From Pseudomonas fluorescens (GTDB lineage: Bacteria; Pseudomonadota; Gammaproteobacteria; Pseudomonadales; Pseudomonadaceae): 64,000 nucleotides of DNA. Positions 26,008-47,297 of the stretch are shown piece by piece. Position 1 is the stretch's first letter. Every line of letters begins with the position of its first letter. The stretch covers positions 1 to 64,000 of the forward strand of contig NZ_CABVIX010000005.1 in assembly GCF_902498185.1 (NCBI RefSeq), written 5' to 3'. The translations under genes and the position numbers were made by a program. The notes beneath the pieces were generated by a model, which was not told the DNA's origin, ran no database searches, and saw nothing but the letters and a program-made list of their open reading frames with translations.

Positions 26008-26838
26008 ATGAACAAGGTTAAGCAGATCAGTGGCAGCACCCGGGTCTACGCCATCATTGCTGACCCCATTCACCATGTGCAGACGCCCGAGGCCATCAAT
26101 CGCCTGTTCGTCGAGCGCGGTGACGACCGGGTGATGGTGCCGTTTCATATCCGCGCCGCCGACCTGCCGGGCGTGGTCGATGGGCTGCGCGGCATTCAGA
26201 GCCTGGATGGCTTCATTGTCACGGTACCGCACAAGACTGCGATGCTCGATCTGTGCGATTCGTTATCCGCGGCTGCGCGTATGGTGGGTGCCGTCAACGT
26301 CATCCGGCGTGACCCGCATGGCAGGCTGCACGGCGACATCCTGGATGGCGCGGGCTTTGTCGCGGGCCTGCGTCAGCGCCAGATCGATCCGGCGGGCATG
26401 TCGGTTTACCTGGCCGGGGCAGGCGGCGCGGCCAAGGCGATCGCGTTCGCGCTGGCCGAAGCGGGCGTGGCGAAGCTGACGATTTTCAACCGCACAGTAG
26501 ACAAGGCGCAGATGCTGATCAAGCGCCTGGCCGAGGAATTTGCCGGGGTCGAGCTGTGTGTCGGCAGTGACGATCCTTCAGGCCATGATCTGGTAGTCAA
26601 CAGCACTTCGCTGGGGCTGCGCGAGGGTGATGAATTGCCATTCGACGCCAGCGCGCTCAACCCATCGCAAATTGTTGCAGAAATCATCATGCAGCCGGCG
26701 ATGACGCCTATGTTGACGGCCGCGCTGGAAAAGGGCTGCCGTATCCAGGACGGCATGCCGATGCTACTCGGCCAGATCGAACTGATGGCCGCCGCCATGG
26801 CCGCGAACGAGGATGAGTTGAATCATGAGCACATTTGA
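26008..26838 (+). CDS. Shikimate/quinate dehydrogenase-like protein (AroE family)
   Basis: A 276-residue AroE-family protein. The substrate domain has IADPIHHVQTPEAINRLF and the catalytic-lysine motif IVTVPHKTAM (about 70-79). The NAD(P) domain has AGAGGAAKAIAFALAEAG followed by the strand-2 motif TIFNRTVDKAQ (the NRT form usually favours NADP) and NSTSLGLREG. Inside a catabolic operon it is unlikely to be the housekeeping AroE; a quinate/shikimate or other hydroxy-carboxylate dehydrogenase is more likely. The usual SxSxSP substrate motif of AroE is replaced by a HHVQTP stretch, which points to a different substrate. The last 14 bases overlap the GMC gene. Confidence 0.85.
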   Translation: MNKVKQISGSTRVYAIIADPIHHVQTPEAINRLFVERGDDRVMVPFHIRAADLPGVVDGLRGIQSLDGFIVTVPHKTAMLDLCDSLSAAARMVGAVNVIRRDPHGRLHGDILDGAGFVAGLRQRQIDPAGMSVYLAGAGGAAKAIAFALAEAGVAKLTIFNRTVDKAQMLIKRLAEEFAGVELCVGSDDPSGHDLVVNSTSLGLREGDELPFDASALNPSQIVAEIIMQPAMTPMLTAALEKGCRIQDGMPMLLGQIELMAAAMAANEDELNHEHI

Positions 26839-28420
26839 TTACGTCATCGTCGGCGGTGGCACTGCTGGCTGCATCCTCGCCAACCGCCTGACTGCCTCTG
26901 GCAAACACAGCGTATTGGTGCTTGAGGCGGGTGGAGAGCCCAATGGATTCTGGATTCCGATTCCGGCCGGTTTCAGCAAGCTGATGGTCGACAAACGCTA
27001 CAACTGGCGCTTCAAGACCCAGGCTGAAGACAATACCCAAGGCCGTGAAATCAGCGTGCCGCGTGGCAAGGGGCTCGGTGGTTCGACATTGATCAACGGT
27101 ATGATCTACGTGCGCGGCCAGCCAGCCGACTACGATGCCTGGGAAGCCGCAGGGGCCAAGGAGTGGAACTTCGCCACCCTCAAGCCCTACTTCAAGAAGC
27201 TCGAGACTTATACCCAGGGTGACAGCAGCCGCGGTGATCAAGGCCCGATGCACATCCACCAGGTCACCGAGCGATACCCGATCGCCGATGCGTTCCTCCT
27301 GGCCAGCGTCGAGGACGGACACCTGCACAACCCCGACTACAACGGCGACACCCAAACCGGCTTTGGTTACTACCAGGTTGCCCAGCACAAGGGACGGCGC
27401 TGGAGTGCGGTGGATGGCTACCTGAAGCCTGCGCGCGCCCGCGCCAACTTGCACATTCAGACCGGTGCCCACGTGCTGCACCTTGAATTGAAGGACAAGC
27501 GTTGTACGGGCTTGGCCTACCGCGTAGGCAACCAACAACGGAGCGTGACCGCACGCGTAGAGGTGATCCTCTGCGCGGGCGCCATCCAGTCGCCACAGAT
27601 TCTCGAGCTCTCGGGGATCGGCCGGCCCGATGTGCTGGGCCGTGTCGGCATTGAAGTCAGGCACCGCCTCGAGGGTGTCGGGGAAAACTACATCGACCAT
27701 TTCGCCACGCGGATGAACTGGCGCCTGAAGAACACCCTGACGCTCAATGAGATGGCGCGTGGTTGGCGCCTTGGACTGGCCGTAGCCGAATACTTCACTC
27801 GGCGTACCGGCATCCTCACGCTGGGTACCGGCCTGGTGCATGGTTTCGTCAAGACCGAGCCCGAGATGGCCACGCCGGATGTGCAGTACTTCGTGGTGCA
27901 CGCCAGCTACGCCAACGCCGCCAATCGCATCCTGGACCGGCATCCCGGTTTCACCATCGGCGTCAGCCAGTTGCGCCCAAAATCCAAGGGCAGCATTCAT
28001 ATACAGTCAAGCGATCCGCAGGTCATGCCCGCCATCCGCCCCAACTTCCTGACCGAGGAGCAGGACTGCAAAAGCCTGATCGAGGGGATGAAAATCGCCC
28101 GCAGGATCATGCAGCAGCCGGCTATGCAGGCTTTCGTCGAAGCCGAAACGAGCCCGGGCGCGGATGCGCGTACTGATGAGCAATGGCTGGCATTTGCCCG
28201 CGCAACCGGGCAAACCATCTATCACCCACTGGGCACTTGCCGCATGGGTGAGGACGACGAGGCAGTGGTCGACTCGAGCCTGCGTGTGCATGGGCTGCAG
28301 GGGCTGCGGATCGTCGATGCTTCGGTCATCCCGTCGATGGTGTCAGGAAACATCCAGGGCGCAGTGATGGCGGTAGCCGAACGCGCTGCCGATTTGATCC
28401 TCGGTACCGCGCCAGCGTGA
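26825..28420 (+). CDS. GMC-family FAD-dependent oxidoreductase (choline dehydrogenase-like)
   Basis: A 531-residue flavoprotein. N-terminal FAD-binding motif YVIVGGGTAGCILANRL, the GMC signature GKGLGGSTLINGMIYVRGQP (about 80-99), second signature CAGAIQSPQILELSGIG, and the active-site His near IYHPLGTCRMG in the C-terminal part. Such enzymes oxidise primary alcohols to aldehydes, often passing electrons to the respiratory chain. With the downstream aldehyde dehydrogenase logic, the operon could take an alcohol to an acid after uptake. It is the last gene of the operon, 21 bases from a convergent LysR gene. Confidence 0.92.
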   Translation: MSTFDYVIVGGGTAGCILANRLTASGKHSVLVLEAGGEPNGFWIPIPAGFSKLMVDKRYNWRFKTQAEDNTQGREISVPRGKGLGGSTLINGMIYVRGQPADYDAWEAAGAKEWNFATLKPYFKKLETYTQGDSSRGDQGPMHIHQVTERYPIADAFLLASVEDGHLHNPDYNGDTQTGFGYYQVAQHKGRRWSAVDGYLKPARARANLHIQTGAHVLHLELKDKRCTGLAYRVGNQQRSVTARVEVILCAGAIQSPQILELSGIGRPDVLGRVGIEVRHRLEGVGENYIDHFATRMNWRLKNTLTLNEMARGWRLGLAVAEYFTRRTGILTLGTGLVHGFVKTEPEMATPDVQYFVVHASYANAANRILDRHPGFTIGVSQLRPKSKGSIHIQSSDPQVMPAIRPNFLTEEQDCKSLIEGMKIARRIMQQPAMQAFVEAETSPGADARTDEQWLAFARATGQTIYHPLGTCRMGEDDEAVVDSSLRVHGLQGLRIVDASVIPSMVSGNIQGAVMAVAERAADLILGTAPA

Positions 28421-30153: not shown

Positions 30154-31083
30154 ATGAATCGAAACGAACTGCGCAAGGCCGACATCAATCTCATGGTCGT
30201 ATTCGAGGCTTTGATGCAGGAGCGCAATCTCACGCGCGCTGCCGAGAAGCTGTTTATCACGCAATCGACCGTGAGCGCTGCGCTGGCAAGGCTCAGGACG
30301 ATGTTCAATGACCCGCTGCTGATTCGGGTAGGCAACCGTATGGAGCCGTCAGCCCGAGCTCAAGAGGTCATCAAATACCTTACGCCCGCGCTCGATGCCA
30401 TCTCGACTGCGCTCAGCCTGACCCATGACTTCGACCCGCCCACGAGCAAGATGACCTTCAGGATCGGCTTGTCTGACGATGTCGAGTCGGGGCTATTGCC
30501 TCCGCTCCTTCGGGCACTACGCATCGAGGCGCCCCACGTGGTGGTTGTCGTTCAGCATGTCGACTACTGGCGGATTCCTGATCTGCTGGCTTCGGGGGAT
30601 GTCACCGTAGGCATCAGCCAGACAAAAGGTCTGCCGGCAAACGCGAAGCGCAAGGTACTGCGGACCATGCAGGCACGGGTGCTCAGGGCGGATAAGTCGT
30701 CCCGGCCACTCACCCTGGACGAGTTCTGCGAGCGACCGCATGTGCAGGTCTCGCCCACCGCGAACATTCACGGCATTGCCGATGACTGGCTCAAGGACAT
30801 CGGGCGTTCGCGCAACGTTGTCTTGTCGATACCCCAATTCAGTTCACTGCCTGCGATCCTTGCAGGCACCGACCTGCTTGCCTGCTGCCCGGACTATGCC
30901 GCCCACGCCATGGCCGGCTGGGGCAATCTGCAGGCTGAACCGCTCCCTTTCCAGACCCTTCCCCTGGAGCTCGCCATGGTGTGGCTGAGCACGACGGACA
31001 GTGACCCCGCTGAACGCTGGCTGAGAGGCAGGCTGGAGCACTATATGGGGGGCGTTCGGGAAGAGCGGTCAGGAGGGCGCTGA
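30154..31083 (+). CDS. LysR-type transcriptional regulator (NodD/SyrM-like subgroup)
   Basis: A 309-residue LysR protein with the subgroup N-terminus LRKADINLMVVFEALMQERN, helix-turn-helix AAEKLFITQSTVSAALARLR and the linker FNDPLLIRVGNRMEPSARA, typical of the NodD-like branch. The sensor domain ends in WLSTTDSDPAERWLRGRL. The gap of 179 bases to the cupin on the other strand makes an arrangement where LysR proteins usually activate the divergent gene. Inducer unknown; an aromatic compound would fit the cupin. Confidence 0.9.
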   Translation: MNRNELRKADINLMVVFEALMQERNLTRAAEKLFITQSTVSAALARLRTMFNDPLLIRVGNRMEPSARAQEVIKYLTPALDAISTALSLTHDFDPPTSKMTFRIGLSDDVESGLLPPLLRALRIEAPHVVVVVQHVDYWRIPDLLASGDVTVGISQTKGLPANAKRKVLRTMQARVLRADKSSRPLTLDEFCERPHVQVSPTANIHGIADDWLKDIGRSRNVVLSIPQFSSLPAILAGTDLLACCPDYAAHAMAGWGNLQAEPLPFQTLPLELAMVWLSTTDSDPAERWLRGRLEHYMGGVREERSGGR

Positions 31084-32491: not shown

Positions 32492-32748
32492 AGCAACCTC
32501 CAAGGTTATTGGGGTGTCCACAAGTATTGCCATACCCAATCTAACTCTGAGCATGGATGTCCGCAAGGGATTTTTGCGGCTGGCAGAGCGCTGGCGCTCT
32601 TTGGCAAGTCTCAAGCAAGGAGGGTTGCCGGGCATGGAAGAAGGGGAAGAGAGCTGCCTTGGCTGGGGCAGCATCCACCGATGAACACCGGCAGGCCGGC
32701 GAAAAGCTGGGTAGACTGTTCAACCGCATATCAATCGTTGTCTGGAAA

Positions 32749-33378
32749 ATGAATCGTCCGCTGTTTGTCTCTCTGGATGGGCCCAAGGGCACCGGCAAAA
32801 CCACATTGCTGGAAGCCGTTACGAAAGCATTGAGGGCAGACAGCAAGAAAGTGATTCGGCTGAGCGAGAAAAAAAGCGACCCCTGCCGGGGTGAAACCAT
32901 GGCCCTGGTCAACAAATTCGTCAGACACCCCACCCGGGACCTGGAGTTGGGCGTGTGTGAGCGCCTTGCCGACAGCCGTACGTGGATTTCTCAGCACGTG
33001 CTCCCCAAACAGCCAGCGGACAGCATCATCCTGATCGATCGCTGGTACCCGTCCGATGCCGCGTTTCGCCGGATGGTCCCCTTTGCAGAGATCCTGCAGT
33101 TGAACATCGATCGAAACGTACGAGTTCCAGACTTGCATGTCGGGGTTGTCACCGCTCCTGATATTTCCTGGGAGAGGGCGGCGGCCCGGCCGCGAGGGCT
33201 GGGCAGCACGCTGCTCCTTGACCTGGAAGAGCAGGTCGCCTGTACCAGGGCGTTCGAGCGTGCGTTCGCGGATCACGGATGGTTTGTATGCCGCAATGAA
33301 GGCACGATCGAAGACGCGACGAAGCAGGTGGTTGCCGAAATCTACAGGCTGCTCGGTCCCCACCCTCAACGATCATGA
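32749..33378 (+). CDS. Thymidylate kinase-like P-loop nucleotide kinase
   Basis: A 209-residue P-loop kinase. Walker A SLDGPKGTGKTTLLEAVTKA with K17, a DRWYPSD motif (about 97-103) that matches the DRY/DRW base-binding and catalytic Asp of dTMP kinases, and an Arg-rich lid region (WERAAARPRG, about 137-146). It is similar in size to Tmk but diverged, so it is probably not the housekeeping enzyme. It is divergent from the antitoxin gene across 257 bases. ATG at 32749 is chosen because the P-loop must lie near the N-terminus. Its role is unknown; nucleotide salvage or a defence-related role are both possible. Confidence 0.72.
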   Translation: MNRPLFVSLDGPKGTGKTTLLEAVTKALRADSKKVIRLSEKKSDPCRGETMALVNKFVRHPTRDLELGVCERLADSRTWISQHVLPKQPADSIILIDRWYPSDAAFRRMVPFAEILQLNIDRNVRVPDLHVGVVTAPDISWERAAARPRGLGSTLLLDLEEQVACTRAFERAFADHGWFVCRNEGTIEDATKQVVAEIYRLLGPHPQRS

Positions 33379-33637
33379 GCGGCTAGCCCGTCTGAGGCAG
33401 TACAGACCTCCCGAAGGCTTCGATGAACGTTTCCTGCTGGCGATTGACGTTATGCAGGTAGAGGCGAGCGAAGCCTTGCCACACGGATATCGCATGTCTG
33501 CGAGACGCCCATGGGCATTCAAGTTGACCCCGAACACTGGCCAGCTCGCCGATTCCCACGAACATTTGACAGCCTTTGGAATCGACCCTATAAAGAACAT
33601 GTTCATAAATGATCAACAACAAAAAGGCTATGATCAT
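33379..33637. other. Intergenic region upstream of the amidohydrolase operon
   Basis: No gene seen. The right end holds a textbook sigma-70 promoter and an operator-like palindrome, listed separately. Confidence 0.5.
33566..33604 (+). promoter_or_regulatory. Sigma-70 promoter with overlapping GAACATGTTC operator-like palindrome
   Basis: TTGACA at 33566-33571, a 17-base spacer and TATAAA at 33589-33594 make a near-consensus promoter. The perfect palindrome GAACATGTTC follows immediately at 33595-33604, over the expected transcription start. The same layout occurs before the SDR gene at 37379. A repressor bound here would block initiation; the nearby TetR protein is the obvious candidate. Confidence 0.72.
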
Positions 33638-34477
33638 ATGCGTCGCATCGACCTGCATTGCTACCCCAATACTCAACGTTGGATCGATTGCCAGGGCCCC
33701 TACGTAGAAGCCTTGGCCAAGTACTGGCATCGTGAGTGGAAGGCCAAGACAGAAGAAGAGGTGGTGCGCGAATTCCAGAGTGCTGGCATCGAGGCGGTGC
33801 TGGTGGCGCTGGACTTGCGGGCCACGATCAACACAGTGCCTTGCGACAACGACTATGTGGCCGGGATGCGCGACCGGCATGACTGCATCATCCAGGCGTG
33901 GGGCGCTGTCGAGCCGGCCATGGGGCAGGTGGCGATCGACGAAGCGAAGCACGCGATTCGAGACCTGGACATGCTCGGCTTCCACTTCCATCCCATCATG
34001 CAGCACTTCAGCGTTGACGATCAGCGCTACTATCCGCTGTGGGAAGAGATCAATGCGCTGAAAGTGCCCGTGATGATCGATGTCGGCATGACGGGCATGG
34101 GGGCTGGCATGCCAGGTGGGATGGGCGCCAAGACCCGTCATGCGCACCCGTCCTCCATCGATAACCTGGCGGCGGACTTTCCGGATCTGACGATCATCAT
34201 GGCTCACCCCGGTTACCCCTGGATCGACGAGACCACGGTGTGCGCCCTGCATAAAGGCAATGTGTTCTGGGAGATGTCGGGCTGGGCTCCAAAATACCTG
34301 CCCGAGGCACTCAAGCGTGATATCCGCGGTCGTCTCAAGCATAAAGTGATGTTTGGCAGCGACTATCCCAGCATTCCCCACGAACGGTTGTTCAAGGAGT
34401 GGAACGAGCTGGGCTACTCCGAAGAAGTGCTCGAGCTGTTCTTCCACAAGAACGCCGAACGCGTGCTGGGGCTCTGA
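33638..34477 (+). CDS. Amidohydrolase family protein (amidohydrolase 2 / decarboxylase-like)
   Basis: A 279-residue metal-dependent TIM-barrel protein of the amidohydrolase 2 group (ACMSD, resorcylate decarboxylase, hydrolases). Visible ligands: IDLHCYPN at the N-terminus (His of the HxH-like site), FHFHPIMQH (about 109-117), IIMAHPGYPW (about 186-195) and the catalytic Asp in VMFGSDYPSIPHERL. The first of a probable three-gene operon with an enoyl-CoA hydratase and an MFS transporter. AAGG lies about 10 bases before ATG 33638; an upstream in-frame start at 33599 would overlap the operator and is unlikely. Confidence 0.8.
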   Translation: MRRIDLHCYPNTQRWIDCQGPYVEALAKYWHREWKAKTEEEVVREFQSAGIEAVLVALDLRATINTVPCDNDYVAGMRDRHDCIIQAWGAVEPAMGQVAIDEAKHAIRDLDMLGFHFHPIMQHFSVDDQRYYPLWEEINALKVPVMIDVGMTGMGAGMPGGMGAKTRHAHPSSIDNLAADFPDLTIIMAHPGYPWIDETTVCALHKGNVFWEMSGWAPKYLPEALKRDIRGRLKHKVMFGSDYPSIPHERLFKEWNELGYSEEVLELFFHKNAERVLGL

Positions 34478-34478
34478 C

Positions 34479-35282
34479 ATGGTCAGCGCGCTGCAGCATG
34501 TGCTGACCGAGCGGCGAGGGCATGTGCTCTATATACGCATCAACCGCCCTGAGCTCCGTAACGCTCTTGATCCGCTTGCTTACCACCAGTTGAGCCTGGC
34601 CTGCGACGAACTCGAGGGCGATCCCGAGTTATGGCTCGGCGTGCTGACCGGGGAGGGTGAGCAGGCATTCAGTGCCGGCCGCGACCTCAAGCAGCTGGCC
34701 GCCATGGCCACTGCCTCCCAGCAGCAAGTAGATGCCGAAGCCGCGTTATGGCAACGCACCACCCGCCTGACTGACCGCTTCAAGTTTTCCAAGCCGTTGA
34801 TTGCACGCCTCAACGGATCAGCCCACGGAGGCGGGCTGGAGCTGGCATTGGCGTGCGACATCATCGTCGCCGCCGAGCACGCCCAACTGAGCCTGCCGGA
34901 ACCCCGGCGTGGCCTTATCGCTACAGCGGGCGGGGTACACCGCCTGCCGCGGCAGATGGGTCTGAAGGTCGCCATGGGCTATCTGCTGACGGGCCGAGCA
35001 ATGACTGCACAACGCGGTTACGAGTTGGGCCTGATCAATGAGGTGGTGCCTGCACACTTGCTTGATGAAGCTGTAGAGCAATGGGTGGCCGACATCCTCG
35101 CCTGTGCACCCCTGGCTGTACGTGCCACGAAGGCCTGCGCCATGCACGGCCTGGACTTGCCACTGGCCGAGGCGGTCAGCCAGCGCTACGAGGCTGAGGA
35201 GCGACGCAAGGTCAGTGCGGACAGCCTTGAGGGGCCCCGCGCCTTTGCAGAGAAACGACGGCCACACTGGCGAGGATGCTGA
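34479..35282 (+). CDS. Enoyl-CoA hydratase/isomerase (crotonase) family protein
   Basis: A 267-residue crotonase. N-terminal strand VLYIRINRPELRNALDP, the oxyanion-hole turns FSAGRDLKQL (about 64-73) and GSAHGGGLELALACDII, and the active-site region LPEPRRGLIATAGG with Glu. The C-terminal SLEGPRAFAEKRRPHW is the normal crotonase end. It acts on CoA thioesters (hydration, isomerisation or ring opening). ATG one base after the amidohydrolase stop. It differs in sequence from the second crotonase at 39873. Confidence 0.9.
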   Translation: MVSALQHVLTERRGHVLYIRINRPELRNALDPLAYHQLSLACDELEGDPELWLGVLTGEGEQAFSAGRDLKQLAAMATASQQQVDAEAALWQRTTRLTDRFKFSKPLIARLNGSAHGGGLELALACDIIVAAEHAQLSLPEPRRGLIATAGGVHRLPRQMGLKVAMGYLLTGRAMTAQRGYELGLINEVVPAHLLDEAVEQWVADILACAPLAVRATKACAMHGLDLPLAEAVSQRYEAEERRKVSADSLEGPRAFAEKRRPHWRGC

Positions 35283-35308
35283 ACCCCTGCAACGGCTTTC
35301 ACCCGATA

Positions 35309-35331
35309 CGGTACCCTCACACGACGGTACC
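35309..35331. promoter_or_regulatory. Paired CGGTACC sites upstream of the MFS gene
   Basis: CGGTACC occurs at 35309-35315 and 35325-35331, each containing the 6-bp palindrome GGTACC, flanked by GATAC on one side of each copy. In the 85-base gap before the MFS gene this looks like a paired operator, but no regulator is known for it. Confidence 0.35.
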
Positions 35332-35367
35332 GATACCTGAATAACAATAATGCACAGGTAACAGGCA

Positions 35368-36672
35368 ATGAATACGTCGCGCATGTTTTATGGCTGGTGG
35401 GTCGTGCTCGCGTCGATCATGGGAATGATTGTCAGCCAAGGCCCGGTCCTGGTGTTCACCTTCGGTATTTTCATGAAGCCGTTGAGCGCCGAGTTTGGCT
35501 GGAGCCGCTCTCAGGTTTCACTCGGCCTGACCGTTGCAATTCTCTCGGCGGCCTTGTGCACGCCCTGGATGGGTCGCCTGATCGACCGCAAAGGCGCACG
35601 CCAGGTAGCGATTCCGGCATTGCTGCTGTTCGGCGTCGGGGTCATGGCGCTGGGGCTGCTGCCTGCCAACCTGATGTTGTTCTATCTAGCGTTCTGCGTG
35701 ATAGGCCTGCTGTCGACTGGAGGCACTCCCACGGCGTACGCCATGGCTGTGAGTTGCTGGTTCGTTCGCCGGCGTGGGTTGGCGTTGGGCTTGAGCATGG
35801 CCGGTATCGGCGTAGGCGCGGCGGTGATGCCGATGCTTGCCCAGCATGCCGTGGCTTCAATGGGGTGGCGCCTGGCGTATGCGGTGATGGGCCTGGTGAT
35901 TGTGCTGGGCGCCGCTGGCGTGGCCTGGCGGCTCAGGAACAAACCCGCCGACCTTGGCCTGTTCCCCGATAACCAGCCCACGGCCGATGGCTTGCCGCAC
36001 GCCCCGGACAAAGTCGGCTTGAGCGTAGGCCAGGCTGTACGCAGCCGTTCGTTCTGGCTGATCGGCAGTGCGTTTTTTCTGGCAGCGCTGGCCATCAATG
36101 GCTGCTCCGTGCACTTCGTGCCGTTGCTCACCGACCGTGGCGTACCTGCCGCCGAAGCAGCGAGCATCGCCTCGATCATCGGTATCGCGCTGATTGCCGG
36201 CCGCGTAGGGGCGGGTTACCTGCTCGACTACCTGTTTGCGCCTTTCGTCACGGTGTTTTTCTTTATTGGCCCGGTGATCGGCATCCTCCTGCTCCATAGC
36301 GGGGCCACTGGCGGCACGGCGATGTTCTGCGCCGCGCTGATTGGCCTTGGAGTCGGGGCAGAGGTGGACCTGATCGCCTACCTGATCGCGCGATACTTCG
36401 GTTTGCGGGCGTTTGGGGAAATATATGGCTACCTGTTCTGCCTGTTCTGCCTGGGTACGGCCTTCGGACCGCTGCTGATGGGCGTGGGCCAGACCCTGCA
36501 GGGCAGCTACGACAGCGTACTGCTGCTGTTCGCTGGCTGCATGGTGATGGCCTGCGTGCTGATGTTGTGTGTGGGTCGCTACCCGGACCTGCAGGCACAA
36601 GACAAGGCGTCTGGATTCAACTCGCCTGGAGCCCGTGCATTATCAGGTTCAGGCGCTTCATCAGCTCATTGA
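35368..36672 (+). CDS. MFS transporter (OFA/monocarboxylate-type)
   Basis: A 434-residue major facilitator with 12 predicted helices. N-terminus FYGWWVVLASIMGMIVSQGP, helix 2-3 loop MGRLIDRKGARQVAIPALL (the RxGxR-type motif), central loop with PADLGLFPDN typical of oxalate/formate-type MFS proteins, and second-half motif GRVGAGYLLD. It probably imports the substrate of the surrounding acyl-CoA pathway. The 3' end overlaps the convergent TetR gene by 56 bases, so the two mRNAs are antisense at their ends. Confidence 0.9.
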   Translation: MNTSRMFYGWWVVLASIMGMIVSQGPVLVFTFGIFMKPLSAEFGWSRSQVSLGLTVAILSAALCTPWMGRLIDRKGARQVAIPALLLFGVGVMALGLLPANLMLFYLAFCVIGLLSTGGTPTAYAMAVSCWFVRRRGLALGLSMAGIGVGAAVMPMLAQHAVASMGWRLAYAVMGLVIVLGAAGVAWRLRNKPADLGLFPDNQPTADGLPHAPDKVGLSVGQAVRSRSFWLIGSAFFLAALAINGCSVHFVPLLTDRGVPAAEAASIASIIGIALIAGRVGAGYLLDYLFAPFVTVFFFIGPVIGILLLHSGATGGTAMFCAALIGLGVGAEVDLIAYLIARYFGLRAFGEIYGYLFCLFCLGTAFGPLLMGVGQTLQGSYDSVLLLFAGCMVMACVLMLCVGRYPDLQAQDKASGFNSPGARALSGSGASSAH

Positions 36673-37246
36673 GGCCGTCTTGCGGCGTTTGTGAGTCACT
36701 GGCCAGCCACATGCGGATCTCCGCTGCCAGCAGGTAGAACATGGTCTTGGCGATCATGCCGTCGTCCTCCTGGCAGCGCACCTCACCCTGAGCGCGGGCA
36801 TGGCCCAGCAGGGTGGCGATGGAGTCGATGGTGCGCGCGCGGGTCGCCTGGAAGCGCTCACTTTGCATCCCCGTCGTATAGAAGGTGATCTCGCGGGTAA
36901 GGTCGCGCGCGATCACCTTGTCCTGTCCGTAGAACTCAAAGAAGTGCTGCAGCGCGTTACGCAGGTTTTCCAGCAACGGAGCCTCGGCGCGGCAGTCGGC
37001 GAAAGCGCGGGTGGTGAGGTCGTCCAGATCATCGTTGAACACCAGGAACAGCAGGTCGCGCTTGTCGGTGGCATAGAGAAACAGGGTCGAAAGGCCAACA
37101 TCCGCTTCCTGGGCAATTTGCCGCGTCGTCGTCGGCTCGAAACCGTTTTCGGTGAACAGTTTTTTCGAAGCGGCACGGATCCTCAGGAATTTGTCGAGCT
37201 TGTTGCGTTCACGCAAACCCAACGGCGCAGCCGGTTTCTCGTTCAT
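36617..37246 (-). CDS. TetR/AcrR-family transcriptional regulator
   Basis: A 209-residue TetR protein. Helix-turn-helix region FTENGFEPTTTRQIAQEADV, then LSTLFLYATDKRDLLFLVF (about 27-66). The ligand domain has no clear sub-family signature. It is divergent from the SDR-ligase-hydratase-thiolase operon, and the GAACATGTTC palindrome between the two genes is the probable operator. The second copy before the amidohydrolase operon suggests one regulon. A CoA thioester or the pathway substrate is a typical ligand for such regulators. Confidence 0.92.
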   Translation of the reverse strand: MNEKPAAPLGLRERNKLDKFLRIRAASKKLFTENGFEPTTTRQIAQEADVGLSTLFLYATDKRDLLFLVFNDDLDDLTTRAFADCRAEAPLLENLRNALQHFFEFYGQDKVIARDLTREITFYTTGMQSERFQATRARTIDSIATLLGHARAQGEVRCQEDDGMIAKTMFYLLAAEIRMWLASDSQTPQDGLNELMKRLNLIMHGLQAS

Positions 37247-37312
37247 GTCAGACCTTTGATTGTTCTGGTTTTGTCGGGGTTTGAGACCTCATCTTAAGTG
37301 ATGGCCTTGACG

Positions 37313-37352
37313 TTGACAAACATTCTGATCACGTCTAAAAATGAACATGTTC
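37313..37352 (+). promoter_or_regulatory. Promoter and GAACATGTTC operator-like palindrome before the SDR operon
   Basis: TTGACA at 37313-37318, a 17-base spacer and a weaker -10 TAAAAA at 37336-37341, followed one base later by GAACATGTTC at 37343-37352. The same order and spacing occur at 33566-33604. GAGG at 37369-37372 is the SDR ribosome-binding site. Confidence 0.7.
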
Positions 37353-37378
37353 TTTTAAAAACAACAACGAGGTAGAAC

Positions 37379-38143
37379 ATGTCCATAGCTCAAAAGGTCG
37401 CACTGGTCACCGGGTCCGCCTCTGGCATAGGAGCTACTGTCGCAGTTGCCCTGGCAACCGCCGGCTACGACGTGATCGTCAACTACAGTCGCAGCGAAGC
37501 CTCGGCCAGGGCCACCGTCGAGGCCTGCGAAGCAGCGGGTGCCCGCACCATGCTGCTGCAGTGCGACGTGTCGGATGAAACCAGCGTCAAGGCCATGGTC
37601 GCGGCCATCAGCGAGCGCTACAGCCATCTGGACGTGGTATGCAGCAACGCCGGTGTGTCGATCGATACGCCACCGAAGAAGTTCGATCTCATTGACGTGG
37701 AAGACTGGGACCGGGTTTTCGCTGTGAACGTGCGCGGGTTGTTCCTCATCGCCAAGCACACAAAGGCCTTGCTGTTCGAAGCCCCGCGCCCCTGCATGGT
37801 CAACACCGCGTCGATCGTGGGCATGCGCCCGGGTGCGCAGCCGCTGCCGTATTCCGCGTCCAAGGCGGCGGTCATCAGCATGACCCAGACCCTGGCCAAT
37901 GCCCTGGGCCCCAAAGTGCGCGTCAACGCCATCGCACCGGGCTGGATGGAGGGCGAGTGGATGGAGTGGATGCTTGGCGACAACTACGACAAGCTGATGA
38001 CCCGCCGCGCCCGTGCAACGCCGCTGCAGCGGTGCGTGACCATGCCGGACGTCGCCGAAGTGGTGCTGACCCTGATCGAGCACATGCACTTCGTCACCGG
38101 CGAAACCATCGTCATCGATGGTGGGTTCGCCAAGACCACCTGA
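37379..38143 (+). CDS. Short-chain dehydrogenase/reductase
   Basis: A 254-residue SDR. VTGSASGIGATVAVALATAG (about 10-29), NYSRSE after strand 2 (favouring NADPH), SNAGVSI, VNTASIVGMRPG with the catalytic Ser and LPYSASKAAVISM with Tyr/Lys. C-terminal VTGETIVIDGGF is standard. FabG-like in pattern. It is first in an operon with an adenylating ligase, crotonase and thiolase, so it probably acts on a beta-hydroxyacyl or ring alcohol intermediate. Confidence 0.92.
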   Translation: MSIAQKVALVTGSASGIGATVAVALATAGYDVIVNYSRSEASARATVEACEAAGARTMLLQCDVSDETSVKAMVAAISERYSHLDVVCSNAGVSIDTPPKKFDLIDVEDWDRVFAVNVRGLFLIAKHTKALLFEAPRPCMVNTASIVGMRPGAQPLPYSASKAAVISMTQTLANALGPKVRVNAIAPGWMEGEWMEWMLGDNYDKLMTRRARATPLQRCVTMPDVAEVVLTLIEHMHFVTGETIVIDGGFAKTT

Positions 38144-38221
38144 CCCTGCCCTTCGGGCCGTCGCTGCGCGTCGGCCCTGCGTGATCCTTCCGACAATAAC
38201 GACAACATCGAGGATTTCTCC

Positions 38222-39871
38222 ATGATGGGATTCGTGCCGTTTCCAGAAAATTTCGCTGCACACTACCGCGCCAGGGGTTACTGGCAAGACCAGACCTTGG
38301 CCAACACCTTCACCGCTGTGTGCCGCAAGTACGCCGAGCGCATTGCCGTGTGCGATGCAAGCCGGGAAGTCAGCTATGCCGAGCTCGACCGGATCGCCAC
38401 GCGCCTGGGACTGAACCTGCTGGATGCCGGCCTGGTGCCGGGTGACATCGTGGTACTGCAATTGGGTAACGTGCTGGAGTTCGTATTCGTCTACCTGGCC
38501 CTGCAAAAGATCGGCGTGCGTCCGATCCTGGCGCTGCACACCCATCGCTACCGTGAGCTGCGCCAGTTCGTCGAACTCTCGGGGGCCACCGCGACGATTA
38601 CCGCGGACCGCTCCAAGGACTGCGATTTCATCGACATCGTCAACCGCGTCCAGGCCGATACCGGCAGCATCCGCAGCAAATTCGTGCTCGGCGAAGTGGC
38701 CCAAGGCTTTGTCTCGCTGAGTGACCTGCTGTCCCGGGAGCCTGCGCGTGAATCCACCGAGATCGAGGCGATCCAGGCTGCCATCGATCCCTGTAGCCCG
38801 GCGTTGTTCCTGTTGTCGGGGGGCACCACCGGTATTCCGAAGATGATCCCGCGTTCGCACAACGACTACGTGTGCAACTCGCGACTGGCTTCGCGCTACA
38901 CCGGCATCGATGAGCATTCGGTACTGCTCGATGTCCTGCCGATCGCCCACAACCTGCCGTTGGCCTGTCCCGGCCTGCAGGGCTTCATGCTCTGCGGCGC
39001 GAAAGTGGTGCTGCATGGCAGCAGCCGCGCGGCCGAAGTATTCGCGCTGATCGAGCGCTTCAACGTCACGCATATACATGTAGTGCCGGCGCTGCTGATC
39101 ATGTGGATGAACGATCCACAGGTCCACGACTTCAATCTGGACAGCGTGCGGGTGATCCAGTCCGGTGGCCAGCGACTGCAACCGGAAACGCGCGCACTGA
39201 CCGAGCAGGTGCTGCGCAACTGCACCGTGCAGGAAAACTTCGGCATGGCCGAGGGATTGCTGATGTTCGTGCGCCTCGACGACCCGCTGGATGTGCGTCG
39301 CGAATCGGTGGGCAGGCCGGTGTGCGACGACGACGAGATCATGCTGCTGGGCGATGACGACCAACCCGTGCCGCTGGGCATGCCGGGTGAGTTGTGCTGC
39401 CGCGGCCCCTATACGTTGCGCGGTTATTTCAATGCGCCCGAGCACAACGCGCGTGCCTTCACCCCCGACGGGTTCTACCGCTCAGGCGACATGATGCGTG
39501 AGCTGCCCTCTGGCAACTACGTGGTCGAAGGGCGCAAGAAGGACCTGATCAACCGCGGTGGCGAAAAGATCTCCGCCGAAGAAATCGAAAACCTGGTGCT
39601 TGCGCATCCTGCGGTTACCAATGTTGCCTGCGTAGCCATGCCCGACCCGGTGCTGGGCGAGAAGATGTGCGCCTTCGTCATTCTCAAGCCAGCGGCGCAA
39701 CTGAGCCTGGAAGACCTGGTCGGCTACCTGCAGACCCAGGAAATCGCCCGTTTCAAGCTGCCCGAACGCCTGGAACTGGTCGACAGCTTCCCGTTGTCGA
39801 CCTTCGGCAAGGTGTCCAAGAAAGACCTGGTGGAGCGCGTCAGCGCAAAGCTCAAGGAAGAGGCCGCCTGA
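38222..39871 (+). CDS. AMP-dependent aryl-acid ligase (EntE/DhbE-like adenylating enzyme)
   Basis: A 549-residue acyl-adenylate enzyme. The N-terminus HYRARGYWQDQTLANTF is characteristic of the 2,3-dihydroxybenzoate/salicylate-AMP ligase group. Core motifs: P-loop LLSGGTTGIPKMIPRSHNDY (A3), QENFGMAEG (A5), YRSGDMMRE (A7), VVEGRKKDLINRGGEKIS (A8) and FPLSTFGKVSKKDL with the catalytic lysine (A10). Lying in an operon with beta-oxidation-type genes and no siderophore genes, it more likely makes an aryl-CoA thioester for degradation than an acyl group for a siderophore. The first codons hold two ATGs; the first is used here. Confidence 0.9.
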   Translation: MMGFVPFPENFAAHYRARGYWQDQTLANTFTAVCRKYAERIAVCDASREVSYAELDRIATRLGLNLLDAGLVPGDIVVLQLGNVLEFVFVYLALQKIGVRPILALHTHRYRELRQFVELSGATATITADRSKDCDFIDIVNRVQADTGSIRSKFVLGEVAQGFVSLSDLLSREPARESTEIEAIQAAIDPCSPALFLLSGGTTGIPKMIPRSHNDYVCNSRLASRYTGIDEHSVLLDVLPIAHNLPLACPGLQGFMLCGAKVVLHGSSRAAEVFALIERFNVTHIHVVPALLIMWMNDPQVHDFNLDSVRVIQSGGQRLQPETRALTEQVLRNCTVQENFGMAEGLLMFVRLDDPLDVRRESVGRPVCDDDEIMLLGDDDQPVPLGMPGELCCRGPYTLRGYFNAPEHNARAFTPDGFYRSGDMMRELPSGNYVVEGRKKDLINRGGEKISAEEIENLVLAHPAVTNVACVAMPDPVLGEKMCAFVILKPAAQLSLEDLVGYLQTQEIARFKLPERLELVDSFPLSTFGKVSKKDLVERVSAKLKEEAA

Positions 39872-39872
39872 G

Positions 39873-40643
39873 ATGAGCGACTTTATCCAATACCGCTTTG
39901 AAGACGGCATCGTCACCTTGACCCTCTGCGCGCCGGAGCAGCACAACGCGCTCAGCCACCAGGCGCAATTCGACGCCTTCGCCCAGGTCTGCGGGCGTAT
40001 CAACCGCGACCCGCAGGTGTCGGTGGTCATTCTCACCGGCGCCGGTAAATCGTTCTGTGCCGGTGGCAACGTCAAGGACATGAAGGCCCGCGCCGGGCTG
40101 TTCGCCGGCAGCCCTTATGAGCTGCGCGACAGCTATCGGCATGGCATCCAGCAGATTCCGCTGGCGGTGTACCACCTGGAGGTACCGACCATCGCGGCGG
40201 TCAACGGCGCCGCGATGGGCGCCGGTTGCGACCTCGCGCTGATGTGCGACATCCGCATCGCATCGACCCAGGCGCGCTTTGCCGAAAGCTTCGTGCGCCT
40301 GGGTATCGTGCCCGGCGACGGTGGGGCCTGGCTACTGCCGCGAGCGCTGAACAACCTGTCGCGCGCGTACGAGCTGTCGTTTACCGGCGAAACGGTGTCG
40401 GCGCAGCAGGCGCTTGAATACGGCCTGGTGTCGCGCGTTGTCGAGCCTGGCGAGCTGCTGGCGACCGCCCAGGACCTTGCCCTGCGCATTGCGGCCAATC
40501 CTGGCCACGCCCTGAGGTTGACCAAGAGGCTGCTACGCGAGGGGCAGCACTCGCGCCTGGAGCCGTTGCTCGAACTGTCGGCGGCCTATCAGGCGTTGTC
40601 CCATCACACCGAGGCCCACCAGGCCATCATCCAGGCGCTTTGA
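39873..40643 (+). CDS. Enoyl-CoA hydratase/isomerase family protein
   Basis: A 256-residue crotonase: ILTGAGKSFCAGGNVKDMKA (oxyanion loop 1), VNGAAMGAGCDLALMCDIRI (loop 2), FAESFVRLGIVPGDGGAWLL with an active-site Glu/Asp, then the helical C-terminus LTKRLLREGQHSRLEPLLEL. ATG one base after the ligase stop, so strongly coupled. It probably hydrates the unsaturated acyl-CoA formed in the pathway. Confidence 0.92.
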   Translation: MSDFIQYRFEDGIVTLTLCAPEQHNALSHQAQFDAFAQVCGRINRDPQVSVVILTGAGKSFCAGGNVKDMKARAGLFAGSPYELRDSYRHGIQQIPLAVYHLEVPTIAAVNGAAMGAGCDLALMCDIRIASTQARFAESFVRLGIVPGDGGAWLLPRALNNLSRAYELSFTGETVSAQQALEYGLVSRVVEPGELLATAQDLALRIAANPGHALRLTKRLLREGQHSRLEPLLELSAAYQALSHHTEAHQAIIQAL

Positions 40644-40685
40644 TCGCAGCCGAGCGCTGCGACCAGCGTTCGGCCGGAGGTTCTC

Positions 40686-41879
40686 ATGCACGACACGGTA
40701 ATCGTTGCCTACGCGCGGTCCGCCATTGGCAAGGCGTATCGGGGCGCGTTCAATCACACGCCGATGCCCAGCCTGGCGGCGCCGATCATTCAGGCACTGC
40801 TCGCACGTGCCGACCTGGAGGGTGCCGAGATCGACGAGCTCGTCATGGGCTGCGGCCGACCCGAGGGTACCCAGGGCAGGAACGTCGCCAGGCTCAGTGC
40901 CGCGCGTGCCGGGTTGCCCGACAGCGTCGCCGCGCAGACGGTCAGCCGCCATTGCGCGTCGGGGCTGCAGGCCATTGCCAGCGCTGCGCAGCGGATTCAG
41001 CTGGGCGAATGCACAGTGATGCTGGCGGTGGGCGGTGAATCCATCAGCCTGGTGCAGAACGCCCACACCAATGAGCACTACGGCCTGGATCCTTGGCTGT
41101 TGCAGCACAGGCCGGATGCCTATATCGGCATGCTCGAAACGGCCGAACGGGTTGCCCTGCGCTACGGCGTCTCCCGGACCGACCAGGATGACTACGCCTT
41201 GATCAGCCAGCAGAGGGCGGCCCAGGCCCAGCGCGATGGGCTGTTCGCACAGGAGATCGTGCCGCTGGATGTCATTTCGCGGGCCTTGGACAAGGCCAGT
41301 TACGAGTATTACGACAAGCCCGTGCGCCTGGACAGTGACGAATGCAACCGGCCTGGCACGCAGGCCGCTCAGCTGGCGGCACTTGCCCCCGTGCTGGAGG
41401 GCGGGCAGCGCACGGTCACGGCCGGCAACGCGTCGCAGCTCAGCGATGGAGTTGCGGGGTGTGTGCTGATGAGTGCTGATGAGGCTCGCGCACGAGGGCT
41501 CAAGCCGCTAGGCGTCTTCAAGGGGTTTGCCAGCGCTGGCTGTGCTCCGGACGAAATGGGCATCGGTCCGGTACTGGCAGTACCTCGGCTGTTGGCCCGC
41601 CATGGCCTGGGTATCGGCGATATCGACTTGTGGGAACTGAACGAGGCCTTCGCCTCCCAGGTGCTGTATTGCCAGCGCCAGCTGGGCATTTCACTGCAAC
41701 GTCTGAACGTCAACGGCGGTGCCATCGCCCTTGGACATCCCTATGGCATGTCGGGTGCGCGCATGGCGGGGCACGCACTGCTCGAGGGGCGCCGGCGCGG
41801 GGCACGGTTTGTCGTGGTGACCATGTGCGTGGGAGGCGGGCAGGGCGCCGCCGCGCTATTGGAGGTGTGTCATGACTGA
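40686..41879 (+). CDS. Acetyl-CoA acetyltransferase family thiolase
   Basis: A 397-residue thiolase. Nucleophilic Cys in [19 protein letters not shown] (near residue 91), NEAFASQVL, the catalytic His in [18 protein letters not shown] (near 350) and the second Cys in [16 protein letters not shown] (near 380). Length is normal for the degradative thiolase class. In this operon it would cleave the beta-ketoacyl-CoA to release acetyl-CoA and end the side-chain shortening. A GGAGG-type site precedes the ATG. Confidence 0.93.
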
Positions 41880-41939
41880 CGGCTGAACCCGGCATTACCC
41901 ATCGCTGCGTCTCTAAAACAACAAAAAGAGGGACTGTCC

Positions 41940-42878
41940 ATGAAGGTTGTTCACGCACGTGTACTGCAAGTTGCCGGTTTGCTGATCTGCCTGCAAGGCA
42001 CTGCCAGCGCCACTGAGGGCAATGGCAACTCCTACCCGCTGGGTGTGGAGACCAACATGTCTGGACTCATGCTGCCCGAGGGGCTCACTGCGCTGTTGTA
42101 CTACTCCCATTACGAGGCCTCTCACGTAAAGGCCAATGATGGTCGAGACAATCCCAATATCGCCCGCTACCGCCTGAAGTCCGACACGGTGTCCCTGCGT
42201 CTGAGCTATGTGTGGCCGGGCGTCAAATGGCTGGGCGCAAACGTCGAGACCCGCGCGGCGCTCGCGGTACCGACCATCGACCTGACCCTGGACGTCGCCC
42301 GCCCAGCGCCCTTGGCCCCGCTGGACAAAGGCGGGACGTCCACCGACCTGGGTGACCTCAGCTTCGCTCCGGTCTTGCTCGGCTGGCATGGCAGGACATT
42401 GCACCAGACTGCCGGCATCGAGACCTTTCTGCCTACAGGGGACTACGACAAGGATGAGCCCGTGAACACCGGGCGAAACTACTACCAGGCCGCGCCTTTC
42501 TATGCGCTTACCTGGCTACCCTCGGAACGGTGGGAGGCCAGTGCCAAGCTACGCTATGCAATCAACGCCAGGAACGAGAAGACCGAGTACCGGTCAGGTG
42601 ATGAACTGACCTTGGAGTTCAGTGGCGGCTATCGCTTCAACCAGGCGCTGAGTGCGGGCATCAATGGTTATCTCTACCGCCAGACCACGGACGACCGGCT
42701 CGACGGTGATGCGGTCAACGGCAACGGCAACCGCGGCTCGGTCAATGCGGCCGGCCCCTACGTGATGTACCGCTTCACCAAGGACTTCGCCGTGGTGGCC
42801 AAATTGCAGGAAGAATTTGGGGCGAAGAACAAGGCCGAAGGTACGCGGTTGTGGCTGCAGGCACGCTTGCCGTTCTGA
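41940..42878 (+). CDS. SphA-family outer membrane porin (phenol/meta-pathway-type)
   Basis: A 312-residue outer-membrane beta-barrel protein with signal peptide MKVVHARVLQVAGLLICLQG and cleavage after TASA. It has many alternating strands, ends in a typical LWLQARLPF (C-terminal Phe), and carries LLYYSHYEASHVKANDG near the N-terminus. The pattern fits the Phenol_MetA_deg / SphA group found beside aromatic degradation genes. It probably lets the hydrophobic substrate through the outer membrane. AAAGAGGG ribosome-binding site. It is the last plus-strand gene of this block. Confidence 0.82.
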   Translation: MKVVHARVLQVAGLLICLQGTASATEGNGNSYPLGVETNMSGLMLPEGLTALLYYSHYEASHVKANDGRDNPNIARYRLKSDTVSLRLSYVWPGVKWLGANVETRAALAVPTIDLTLDVARPAPLAPLDKGGTSTDLGDLSFAPVLLGWHGRTLHQTAGIETFLPTGDYDKDEPVNTGRNYYQAAPFYALTWLPSERWEASAKLRYAINARNEKTEYRSGDELTLEFSGGYRFNQALSAGINGYLYRQTTDDRLDGDAVNGNGNRGSVNAAGPYVMYRFTKDFAVVAKLQEEFGAKNKAEGTRLWLQARLPF

Positions 42879-42893
42879 GCGGGACAGTCAGCA

Positions 42894-43820
42894 TCAGTAC
42901 CCGGTGTTGCGCATGACCAACCCTCGCAGCGGTTCGCCGGCCTGATGCCGCCTGACATTGGCCAGCAACCCTTCGAATGCGCTCTCTGGTGCGGTCATCG
43001 CGCCCACATGCGGGGTCAGCCAGATCTGTGGGTGTTGCCAGAACAGATGGTCCGGCGAGGGCGGCTCTTCGTTGAGCACGTCGAGGATGGCGTGACTCAA
43101 GTGCTGGCAATCGAGTGCTTGAAGCAGAGCATCTTCGATCAAGTGACCGCCCCGGCCCAGATTGATCAGGCTCGCACCTCTTGGCAGTGCGGCCAGTGTC
43201 CTGGCGTTCAGTATGCCGCGGGTGTCATCGGTCAGCGGCAGCAGGCAGATCAGGATGTCGCACTGGTTGAGGAAGGGCTCGAGCTGGTCGTTGCCGAAAT
43301 GGCAGTGCACGCCATCGAGGGTCTTCGGCGAGCGTGCCCAGCCATGCAGTTCGAAGCCGAACGGGCGCAGGCTGTCCAGCACTGCAACACCCAGGTTGCC
43401 CAGGCCCATGACGCCGACGCGGCGTTGGGCCGCCGGGATCAGGAGGTGGTCTTGCCAACGCCTGGCCTGTTGTTGATGCAGGTACTGCGGGATCTGGCGA
43501 TGCAGGCTCAACACGGCAAAGCAGGCGTACTCGACTATGCCCTGGGCGATACCGGGGTCGAGCATGCGGACAACCTTGATGTGCTCCGGCAATTCACGCA
43601 GATCGAACTGATCGACGCCTGCCGAGGTGGCAAAGATCACGTCCAGATTGGGAAAGCGTTCATGCAGCTTCTGCGGCGGTTGCCAGGCCGCGAAGTAGCG
43701 GACGTGCGATGGGTCGCCAATATCGGGCCACAAGCGTACTTCGATGTCAGGCGCATGTTTGGCGAACAGTGATTTCCAGGCAGAGCCTCGGGCATCGTCG
43801 ACTTTGAACAGCAGGGCCAT
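42894..43820 (-). CDS. ghrA: Glyoxylate/hydroxypyruvate reductase A-like D-2-hydroxyacid dehydrogenase
   Basis: A 308-residue D-2-hydroxyacid dehydrogenase. Nucleotide motif GVMGLGNLGVAVLDSL, catalytic Arg in LINLGRGGHLIEDAL, Glu in DVLNEEPPSPDHLFW and His in IWLTPHVGAMTAP. The short N-terminal domain without the GxGxxG-preceding lobe and the HVGAMTAPES C-terminus are typical of GhrA, which reduces glyoxylate and hydroxypyruvate. It follows the tartrate dehydrogenase-like gene by 107 bases on the same strand, across a long palindrome. Both enzymes handle small hydroxyacids. Confidence 0.85.
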   Translation of the reverse strand: MALLFKVDDARGSAWKSLFAKHAPDIEVRLWPDIGDPSHVRYFAAWQPPQKLHERFPNLDVIFATSAGVDQFDLRELPEHIKVVRMLDPGIAQGIVEYACFAVLSLHRQIPQYLHQQQARRWQDHLLIPAAQRRVGVMGLGNLGVAVLDSLRPFGFELHGWARSPKTLDGVHCHFGNDQLEPFLNQCDILICLLPLTDDTRGILNARTLAALPRGASLINLGRGGHLIEDALLQALDCQHLSHAILDVLNEEPPSPDHLFWQHPQIWLTPHVGAMTAPESAFEGLLANVRRHQAGEPLRGLVMRNTGY

Positions 43821-47283: not shown

Positions 47284-47297
47284 GGTTGGATATCGGC

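Follow-up and report, generated by a model that had tools for sequence, protein, structure and literature searches.

The cassette and its paired promoters

The DNA analysed here ('the window') is a stretch of 64,000 nt from Pseudomonas fluorescens (contig NZ_CABVIX010000005.1, positions 1–64,000, of a 4.85 Mb genome). It contains a nine-gene cassette, probably for the breakdown of an aromatic acid, whose two operons are headed by promoters of the same design, each with a TTGACA −35 element, a 17-base spacer, a TANAAA −10 element and then the 10-bp palindrome GAACATGTTC; a gene for a TetR-family regulator lies between the operons. Comparison among genomes leads us to propose, with a probability of about 0.8, that the cassette is under two-layer control, by this TetR acting at the palindrome as its operator and by Crc/Hfq acting at the sequence AANAANAA in the leaders. 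The features of the cassette, with the conservation of its sites among six carrier genomes, are as follows.

33585–42878, no strand: portable cassette of nine genes, about 9.3 kb (blastn identity 79–88% in all five pairings with the window)
33566–33594, forward strand: promoter of the amidohydrolase operon, TTGACA-N17-TATAAA (−35 at 33566–33571, −10 at 33589–33594)
33595–33604, no strand: operator 1, GAACATGTTC (GAACRTGTTC in 6/6 genomes)
33638–34477, forward strand: amidohydrolase (PF04909; 36% identity to an annotated 4-hydroxyphenyl-beta-ketoacyl-CoA hydrolase)
34479–35282, forward strand: enoyl-CoA hydratase ECH1 (nearest NCBIfam model DpgD, 347 bits, under the cut-off of 400)
35368–36672, forward strand: major facilitator superfamily (MFS) transporter (PF07690), with a 56-bp overlap with the 3′-end of tetR
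36617–37246, reverse strand: TetR-family regulator, 209 aa, proposed repressor (PF00440, 40.1 bits against a cut-off of 24)
37313–37342, forward strand: promoter of the short-chain dehydrogenase/reductase (SDR) operon, TTGACA-N17-TAAAAA, or N18 with AAAAAT (6/6 genomes)
37343–37352, no strand: operator 2, GAACATGTTC (GAACRTGTTC in 6/6 genomes)
37379–38143, forward strand: SDR dehydrogenase (PF13561)
38222–39871, forward strand: AMP-forming acid ligase, closest to salicylate/2,3-dihydroxybenzoate-AMP ligases
39873–40643, forward strand: enoyl-CoA hydratase ECH2 (PRK09245, above cut-off)
40686–41879, forward strand: acetyl-CoA C-acyltransferase, a thiolase (TIGR01930, above cut-off)
41940–42878, forward strand: Phenol_MetA_deg protein (PF13557), a putative outer-membrane channel

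An earlier note on this DNA had described the common layout of the two promoters, with the palindrome within one base of the −10 element at each and a TetR gene between the operons, divergent from the second site, and all of this is correct to the base. At site 1 the operator abuts the −10 element directly, the start codon being at 33638, and from the −10 spacing it would overlap the transcription start predicted at about 33601–33603. At site 2 the −35 (37313–37318) and −10 (37336–37341) elements are followed by a single T, the operator (37343–37352) and an ATG at 37379; a promoter scanner reads this −10 element as AAAAAT after an 18-base spacer, in which case the operator would abut it exactly. 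The regulator gene, whose product matches PF00440, is divergent from the second operon and has its start codon about 97 bp from operator 2.

It is the combination of palindrome and promoter that is unusual. The pattern TTGACA-N16-18-TANAAA occurs at just these two sites in the 64 kb, both strands considered, each time with a perfect 10-bp palindrome behind it, and promoter and palindrome were never so combined in 100 second-order Markov sequences. The repeated palindrome by itself we have dropped as evidence: 12 kinds of 10-bp palindrome are repeated in the window as against 9.4 expected from simulations (three as against 1.8 within 5 kb). When as many as two mismatches are allowed, GAACATGTTC matches the window at 41 places, as against 23.5 expected and above every one of 100 shuffles.

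Conservation and genomic distribution of the candidate operator

The genomes known to carry the cassette are six in all: the window's own and those of Pseudomonas sp. BP8, P. fluorescens C2, P. endophytica BSTT44, the gamma proteobacterium L18 and P. reidholzensis CCOS 865 (a list that may omit records very close to the window's genome). Their TetR proteins are 87–100% identical (87–98% for the five orthologues). Across the six genomes none of the 35 columns upstream of the amidohydrolase promoter and two of the 17 spacer columns are invariant, as against all six columns of the −35 element, all six of the −10 element and nine of the 10 in the operator; the following 24 bases have 20 invariant columns. 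Within the operator only the central A varies, being replaced by G in a number of copies; the outer tetranucleotides, GAAC and GTTC, are fixed in all 12 sites. The SDR promoter likewise keeps its −35 element, −10 element and operator in every carrier, together with an unusual 14 of 17 spacer positions.

A further short element, TGATCA, is conserved in the SDR spacer (37326–37331) and in the amidohydrolase leader just past the operator (33610–33615), at differing distances from the operator. Another sequence, GAACATGTCC at 37375–37384, differs from the operator by one mismatch, overlaps the SDR start codon and lies 32 bp centre-to-centre from operator 2; it is present in five of the six genomes, having been lost in one (L011), and may be an auxiliary operator or a coincidence of the start region.

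The earlier note had further proposed a local TetR regulon with GAACATGTTC as its operator, and had held that a palindrome common at random genomic places would speak against it. That search has now been run. The window's genome contains GAACATGTTC at seven places and GAACRTGTTC at 18, and the 16 places beyond the two promoters all fall within open frames of at least 151 codons, with the caveat that by this mechanical test the amidohydrolase operator also falls in an open frame (446 codons, from 33137). We place operator 1 upstream of a gene starting at 33638 because DNA similarity to the relatives begins at 33585–33589 (33566 in one relative) and not farther upstream, because none of the 35 upstream positions is invariant, and because amidohydrolase homologues in two betaproteobacterial clusters (66–68% identical) are annotated as starting at the same methionine. 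Scanned through 398 Pseudomonas genomes, the −10 element plus operator (TANAAAN{0,1}GAACRTGTTC) is found at nine places in seven genomes. Four of these are both promoters in the window's genome and in a second one, the carrier of L011; these two are also the only ones of the 398 in which this TetR is found at an E-value of 1e-20 or better. The five others lie in five of the 396 remaining genomes, each in an open frame of 257 or 642 codons. Every one of the six carrier genomes has the pattern exactly twice, both copies in the cassette, so that the proposed regulon survived the search and is well supported by comparison.

The sequence ATGAACNNGTTC, tried as a guide to further regulon members, occurs at 16 places in the window's genome, 14 of them outside the cassette, all in open frames of at least 133 codons, and none is proposed, more strongly mismatched sites elsewhere not being covered. 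The LexA-type box of Gram-positives, GAAC-N4-GTTC, was set aside on its spacing, which differs from the GAAC-N2-GTTC core here. For footprinting among distant relatives of TetR, none besides the protein's own gene was found at an E-value of 1e-15 or better in 369 genomes of the class. Five weaker hits (L013–L017) have no cassette around them, and the thiolase of one (L014) is 44% identical to that of the cassette.

The TetR regulator and its promoter

By Pfam, TetR is the sole regulator gene within the conserved cassette. Its N terminus contains the TetR_N helix-turn-helix, a region invariant in the six orthologues, and its AlphaFold model is all helical, at a low mean pLDDT of 59. Its sequence neighbours include the cholesterol repressor KstR and, among those of solved structure, 3whb, a 'fatty acid metabolism regulator protein'; both are regulators that bind ligands of the acyl-CoA type. 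The promoter of the gene itself lies between the operons:

37291–37319, reverse strand: tetR promoter, TTGTCA-N17-TAAGAT, listed by the scanner, its −35 element overlapping that of the SDR promoter

This promoter is kept as TTGTCA-N17-TAA[GC]AT, and its −35 element overlies the SDR −35 element (TTGACAA/TTGTCAA), in all six genomes. Since the −35 element is shared, the tetR and SDR promoters should exclude each other. We tentatively raise the possibility of a self-reinforcing switch, in which polymerase holds only one of the two promoters at a time: repressor on the SDR operator would leave the shared −35 element free for tetR transcription, and upon its release the SDR promoter would win, tetR would be starved and the operons would be locked on, with Crc/Hfq then gating the output at both membranes and at both first enzymes.

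A candidate Crc/Hfq layer in the leaders

AANAANAA has been published as the catabolite-activity (CA) motif of Crc/Hfq (PMC10617552), and Hfq is described as binding an A-rich stretch from −26 to −8 of the amiE mRNA and blocking its translation (PMC4063720). Four leaders of the cassette carry such a motif in all six genomes:

33615–33625, forward strand: CA motif AACAACAAAAA in the amidohydrolase leader
35340–35350, forward strand: CA motif of the MFS leader, situated in the loop between the inverted repeats TACCTG and CAGGTA
37357–37367, forward strand: CA motif AAAAACAACAA in the SDR leader
41917–41927, forward strand: CA motif AACAACAAAAA in the leader of the outer-membrane channel gene

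The motif begins 19–28 bases ahead of the start codon in 24 of 24 of these leaders, and in each it is located at or beside the ribosome-binding site, as expected of a CA-motif target. Its variable positions change among the genomes and its A pairs are constant. The ligase leader has it in four of the six genomes, the internal genes ECH1, ECH2 and thiolase in none of 18 cases. Among the 56 genes called by script in the window, the nine of the cassette included, the motif lies within 35 bases of the called start in three, all in the cassette; the amidohydrolase gene becomes the fourth once its start is corrected, giving four of nine cassette genes against none of 47 others (p = 3.4e-4, an approximate value as the starts are script-called). 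Over both strands of the window the motif has 25 starting positions, eight of them within the four leaders. The genome encodes two CrcZ-family RNAs (RF01675; 335 and 318 bits against a cut-off of 95), a family found in none of 14 control genomes, and presumably crc and hfq, which we assume from the genus. Catabolite repression is thus predicted to act on transport at the inner and the outer membrane and on the enzyme that each operon encodes first.

One of the CrcZ-family RNAs is on the contig of the cassette, outside the window (G000:C5:307170-307554). Short inverted repeats flank the CA motif in the amidohydrolase (33609–33637), MFS (35334–35360) and SDR (37346–37382) leaders; they are largely conserved and could pair into a hairpin.

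Proposed mechanism and its alternatives

We propose that TetR binds GAACRTGTTC behind the −10 elements of both operon promoters, where it would lie over the transcription start and keep RNA polymerase away. Its release would come from an intermediate of the pathway, in the likeliest case an aryl-CoA thioester formed by the ligase that the cassette itself encodes. In a second layer, as long as CrcZ/CrcY RNA levels are kept down by preferred carbon sources, Hfq and Crc would block translation of the two transport genes and of the gene that opens each operon. With the cassette's enzymes, the cell would import an aromatic acid, probably one resembling a hydroxycinnamate, activate it and trim its side chain in CoA-dependent, beta-oxidation-like steps. 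The position of the operator behind the −10 element, its tie to the TetR cassette and the AANAANAA leaders are all conserved in the comparison; from these we infer TetR binding, repression by polymerase exclusion, release by a CoA thioester and Hfq/Crc action. Thus GAACATGTTC is very probably the binding site of the TetR encoded between the operons, and the leader signal probably silences the genes when better food is available. For the CoA-thioester ligand we argue from the fact that the cassette makes its own CoA esters, from the sequence neighbours of TetR, and from a precedent in the TetR family, the repressor MbdR, which has operators over +1 and is released by 3-methylbenzoyl-CoA (PMC4424350). 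The earlier note had not described the limits of the cassette, the Crc/Hfq layer, the alternation of A and G at the operator centre or the −35 element common to the tetR and SDR promoters.

Several observations weigh against this proposal. Inheritance of the cassette as one piece means that finding TetR together with the operator does not count as separate evidence of binding, and a 10-bp core with flanks that are just partly symmetric is short for a TetR operator (that of MbdR has 18 bp, that of PsrA is C/GAAAC-N2-4-GTTTG/C). The amidohydrolase promoter is absent from the output of the scanner, which requires a T at the final −10 position, and the scanner's two hits in 33300–43000 are at chance level (2.6 expected from shuffles). 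The nearest NCBIfam regulator models all score far under their curated cut-offs (PsrA 25.7 of 300 bits, FadR 41.3 of 200 bits), and identity with PsrA or a Bacillus-type FadR was rejected on these scores. For the second layer, the p-value above depends on the corrected amidohydrolase start (the uncorrected count is three of 56), 17 starting positions of AANAANAA lie elsewhere in the window on both strands, and the motif appears in one of six tetR leaders and in two of 16 leaders of the betaproteobacterial clusters.

The palindrome might be the site of a global or otherwise unlinked regulator, the local TetR controlling other targets or using other DNA; comparison is what ties TetR to the operator, the tetR promoter has no operator copy, so that autoregulation is not evident, and the conserved TGATCA at both promoters would leave room for such a regulator. 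A global regulator would, however, be expected to have more sites, and the configuration does not recur in the rest of any of the six carrier genomes, nor is it found at a promoter in the 396 sampled Pseudomonas genomes that lack this TetR; we therefore consider an unlinked regulator unlikely. That TetR binds the site but as an activator or dual regulator is very unlikely, even if members of the family can activate (PMC13104628), given that at both promoters the site lies just downstream of the −10 element and over the expected +1, as suits steric exclusion, and that with a perfect TTGACA in both −35 elements an activator should be unnecessary. Least probable of all is that the shared architecture reflects chance or the recent common descent of one DNA stretch. 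The carriers are indeed closely related, their cassette DNA being 79–88% identical to the window's, but the sequence around the amidohydrolase promoter has diverged where the −35 element, −10 element and operator have not (see column counts above), and none of the 100 simulations produced such a site.

The conserved leader stretches, for their part, might be good ribosome-binding contexts or hairpins, with no role as Crc/Hfq targets. AANAANAA is less surprising in leaders that, like these, are rich in A, and potential stems enclose the motif in the amidohydrolase, MFS and SDR leaders. The pattern of change in the motif nonetheless speaks for the predicted Crc/Hfq targets: the bases at the N positions of AANAANAA differ among genomes, yet all 24 leaders retain the A pairs, the internal genes are without the motif in 18 of 18 cases, and covariation is seen in none of the stems (no pair with both sides changed in the three alignments). 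We regard the ribosome-binding or hairpin explanation as rather improbable.

Pathway and likely substrate

The enzymes of the cassette fit a CoA-dependent, beta-oxidation-like side-chain pathway, with substrate and inducer inferred from gene content. At the family level it has a ligase, hydratase and dehydrogenase and an amidohydrolase of the beta-ketoacyl-CoA hydrolase type. The full-length, 36%-identical match of the amidohydrolase is a Rhizobium protein annotated as 4-hydroxyphenyl-beta-ketoacyl-CoA hydrolase, whose gene adjoins those for feruloyl-CoA synthase, an enoyl-CoA hydratase and a MarR regulator; behind this hydroxycinnamate-like cluster come type I-C CRISPR genes (L074, 11930–16849). 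In Agrobacterium fabrum, a CoA synthase, a hydratase, a dehydrogenase and Atu1421 ('beta-keto-thiolase') are reported to turn ferulate into vanillate (PMC7797058), and four Rhodococcus enzymes that have been compared with that pathway convert piperic acid to piperonylic acid by shortening it (PMC12753220). No MarR-type local repressor such as that of A. fabrum, a feature that the pathway does not strictly require, is found in the cassette, whose sole regulator is TetR. Atu1421 itself is presumably an amidohydrolase-type enzyme. A point against a hydroxycinnamate pathway is that the ligase is nearer to salicylate/2,3-dihydroxybenzoate-AMP ligases than to 4-coumarate-CoA ligases; this affinity, together with the extra thiolase and hydratase, leaves some latitude as to the exact substrate. 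As a guess, an ortho-oxygenated phenylpropenoid acid would suit.

Relation to known systems

Control of a catabolic cassette by a TetR repressor together with Crc/Hfq is of a known kind, and the nearest counterparts each share some of its parts. MbdR of Azoarcus sp. CIB likewise represses several operons of an aromatic-acid CoA pathway through a palindromic operator spanning +1/−10, with carbon catabolite repression on top (PMC4424350), but its operator is ATAC-N10-GTAT, its pathway is anaerobic, its own promoter has operators too and its catabolite control is by AccR. PsrA, a Pseudomonas repressor of the TetR family, also uses a short palindrome located between −18 and +20, but this reads C/GAAAC-N2-4-GTTTG/C, in contrast to the GAAC-N2-GTTC core of the cassette, and PsrA has a site at its own promoter (PMC13104628). 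The HcaR/Atu1415/1416/1417/1421 system of A. fabrum combines a CoA synthase, hydratase, dehydrogenase and aromatic-acid-releasing enzyme with a local repressor (PMC7797058); that repressor is of the MarR family, whereas the cassette has TetR and in addition a thiolase, a second hydratase, an MFS transporter and a channel. As in the amiE model of Pseudomonas Crc/Hfq, an A-rich AANAANAA stands just before the start codon in a genome with CrcZ-family RNAs (PMC4063720, PMC10617552); unlike in that model, predicted motifs here precede the two transport genes and the first gene of each operon, all in one cassette. Plasmid clusters of Sphaerotilus (NZ_CP035710.1, L050) and Acidovorax (NZ_AP029020.1, L051) have the SDR, the AMP ligase, the amidohydrolase (66–68% identical), the thiolase and two hydratases, but differ in having a LysR regulator, a tripartite tricarboxylate substrate-binding protein and a carboxylesterase, and have no TetR annotated.

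In the open-licence literature, judged by titles and the starts of abstracts, we found no description of this regulator, operator or two-layer layout, no bacterial TetR operator with this sequence (PMC4464171, on Helicobacter ArsRS/NikR, concerns other bacterial regulators), and nothing on this cassette as a TetR-run hydroxycinnamate pathway in Pseudomonas. The proposal makes exact predictions: within the 9.3-kb cassette there should be two promoters under TetR, four sites of catabolite repression and an operator of 10 bp that tolerates a single change, from A to G at its centre. If it is true, the cassette would be a compact aryl-acid sensor for Pseudomonas engineering, and comparison with the LysR-run betaproteobacterial versions would show a single set of enzymes under regulators that differ between lineages.

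Cassette boundaries and surroundings

The order of the nine genes is identical in all five named relatives, and blastn similarity to them runs from the amidohydrolase promoter to the last stop codon and ends there. Of the window genes that flank the cassette, the nine compared have no match at the relatives' loci, which reach about 5 kb to its left and 2.3 kb to its right. We conclude from the common gene order, the unmatched flanks and the sharp ends of similarity that this 9.3-kb stretch is a portable cassette. A tRNA scan of the window returned nothing, and neither did an Rfam scan of it at the gathering threshold.

In P. endophytica, two short stretches resembling parts of the amidohydrolase and ECH1 genes lie upstream of the cassette (L010, reverse complement, 3436–3752) and look like the remains of a second copy. 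In the window itself, the gene directly upstream of the cassette (32557–33378) encodes a P-loop protein with borderline scores for thymidylate kinase (26.8 bits against 27) and AAA (21.5 against 21.2). Farther out, the cassette has genes of the same two families on both its sides: LysR genes at 30154–31083 and 45116–46027, and GMC oxidoreductase genes at 26825–28420 and 47286–49031.

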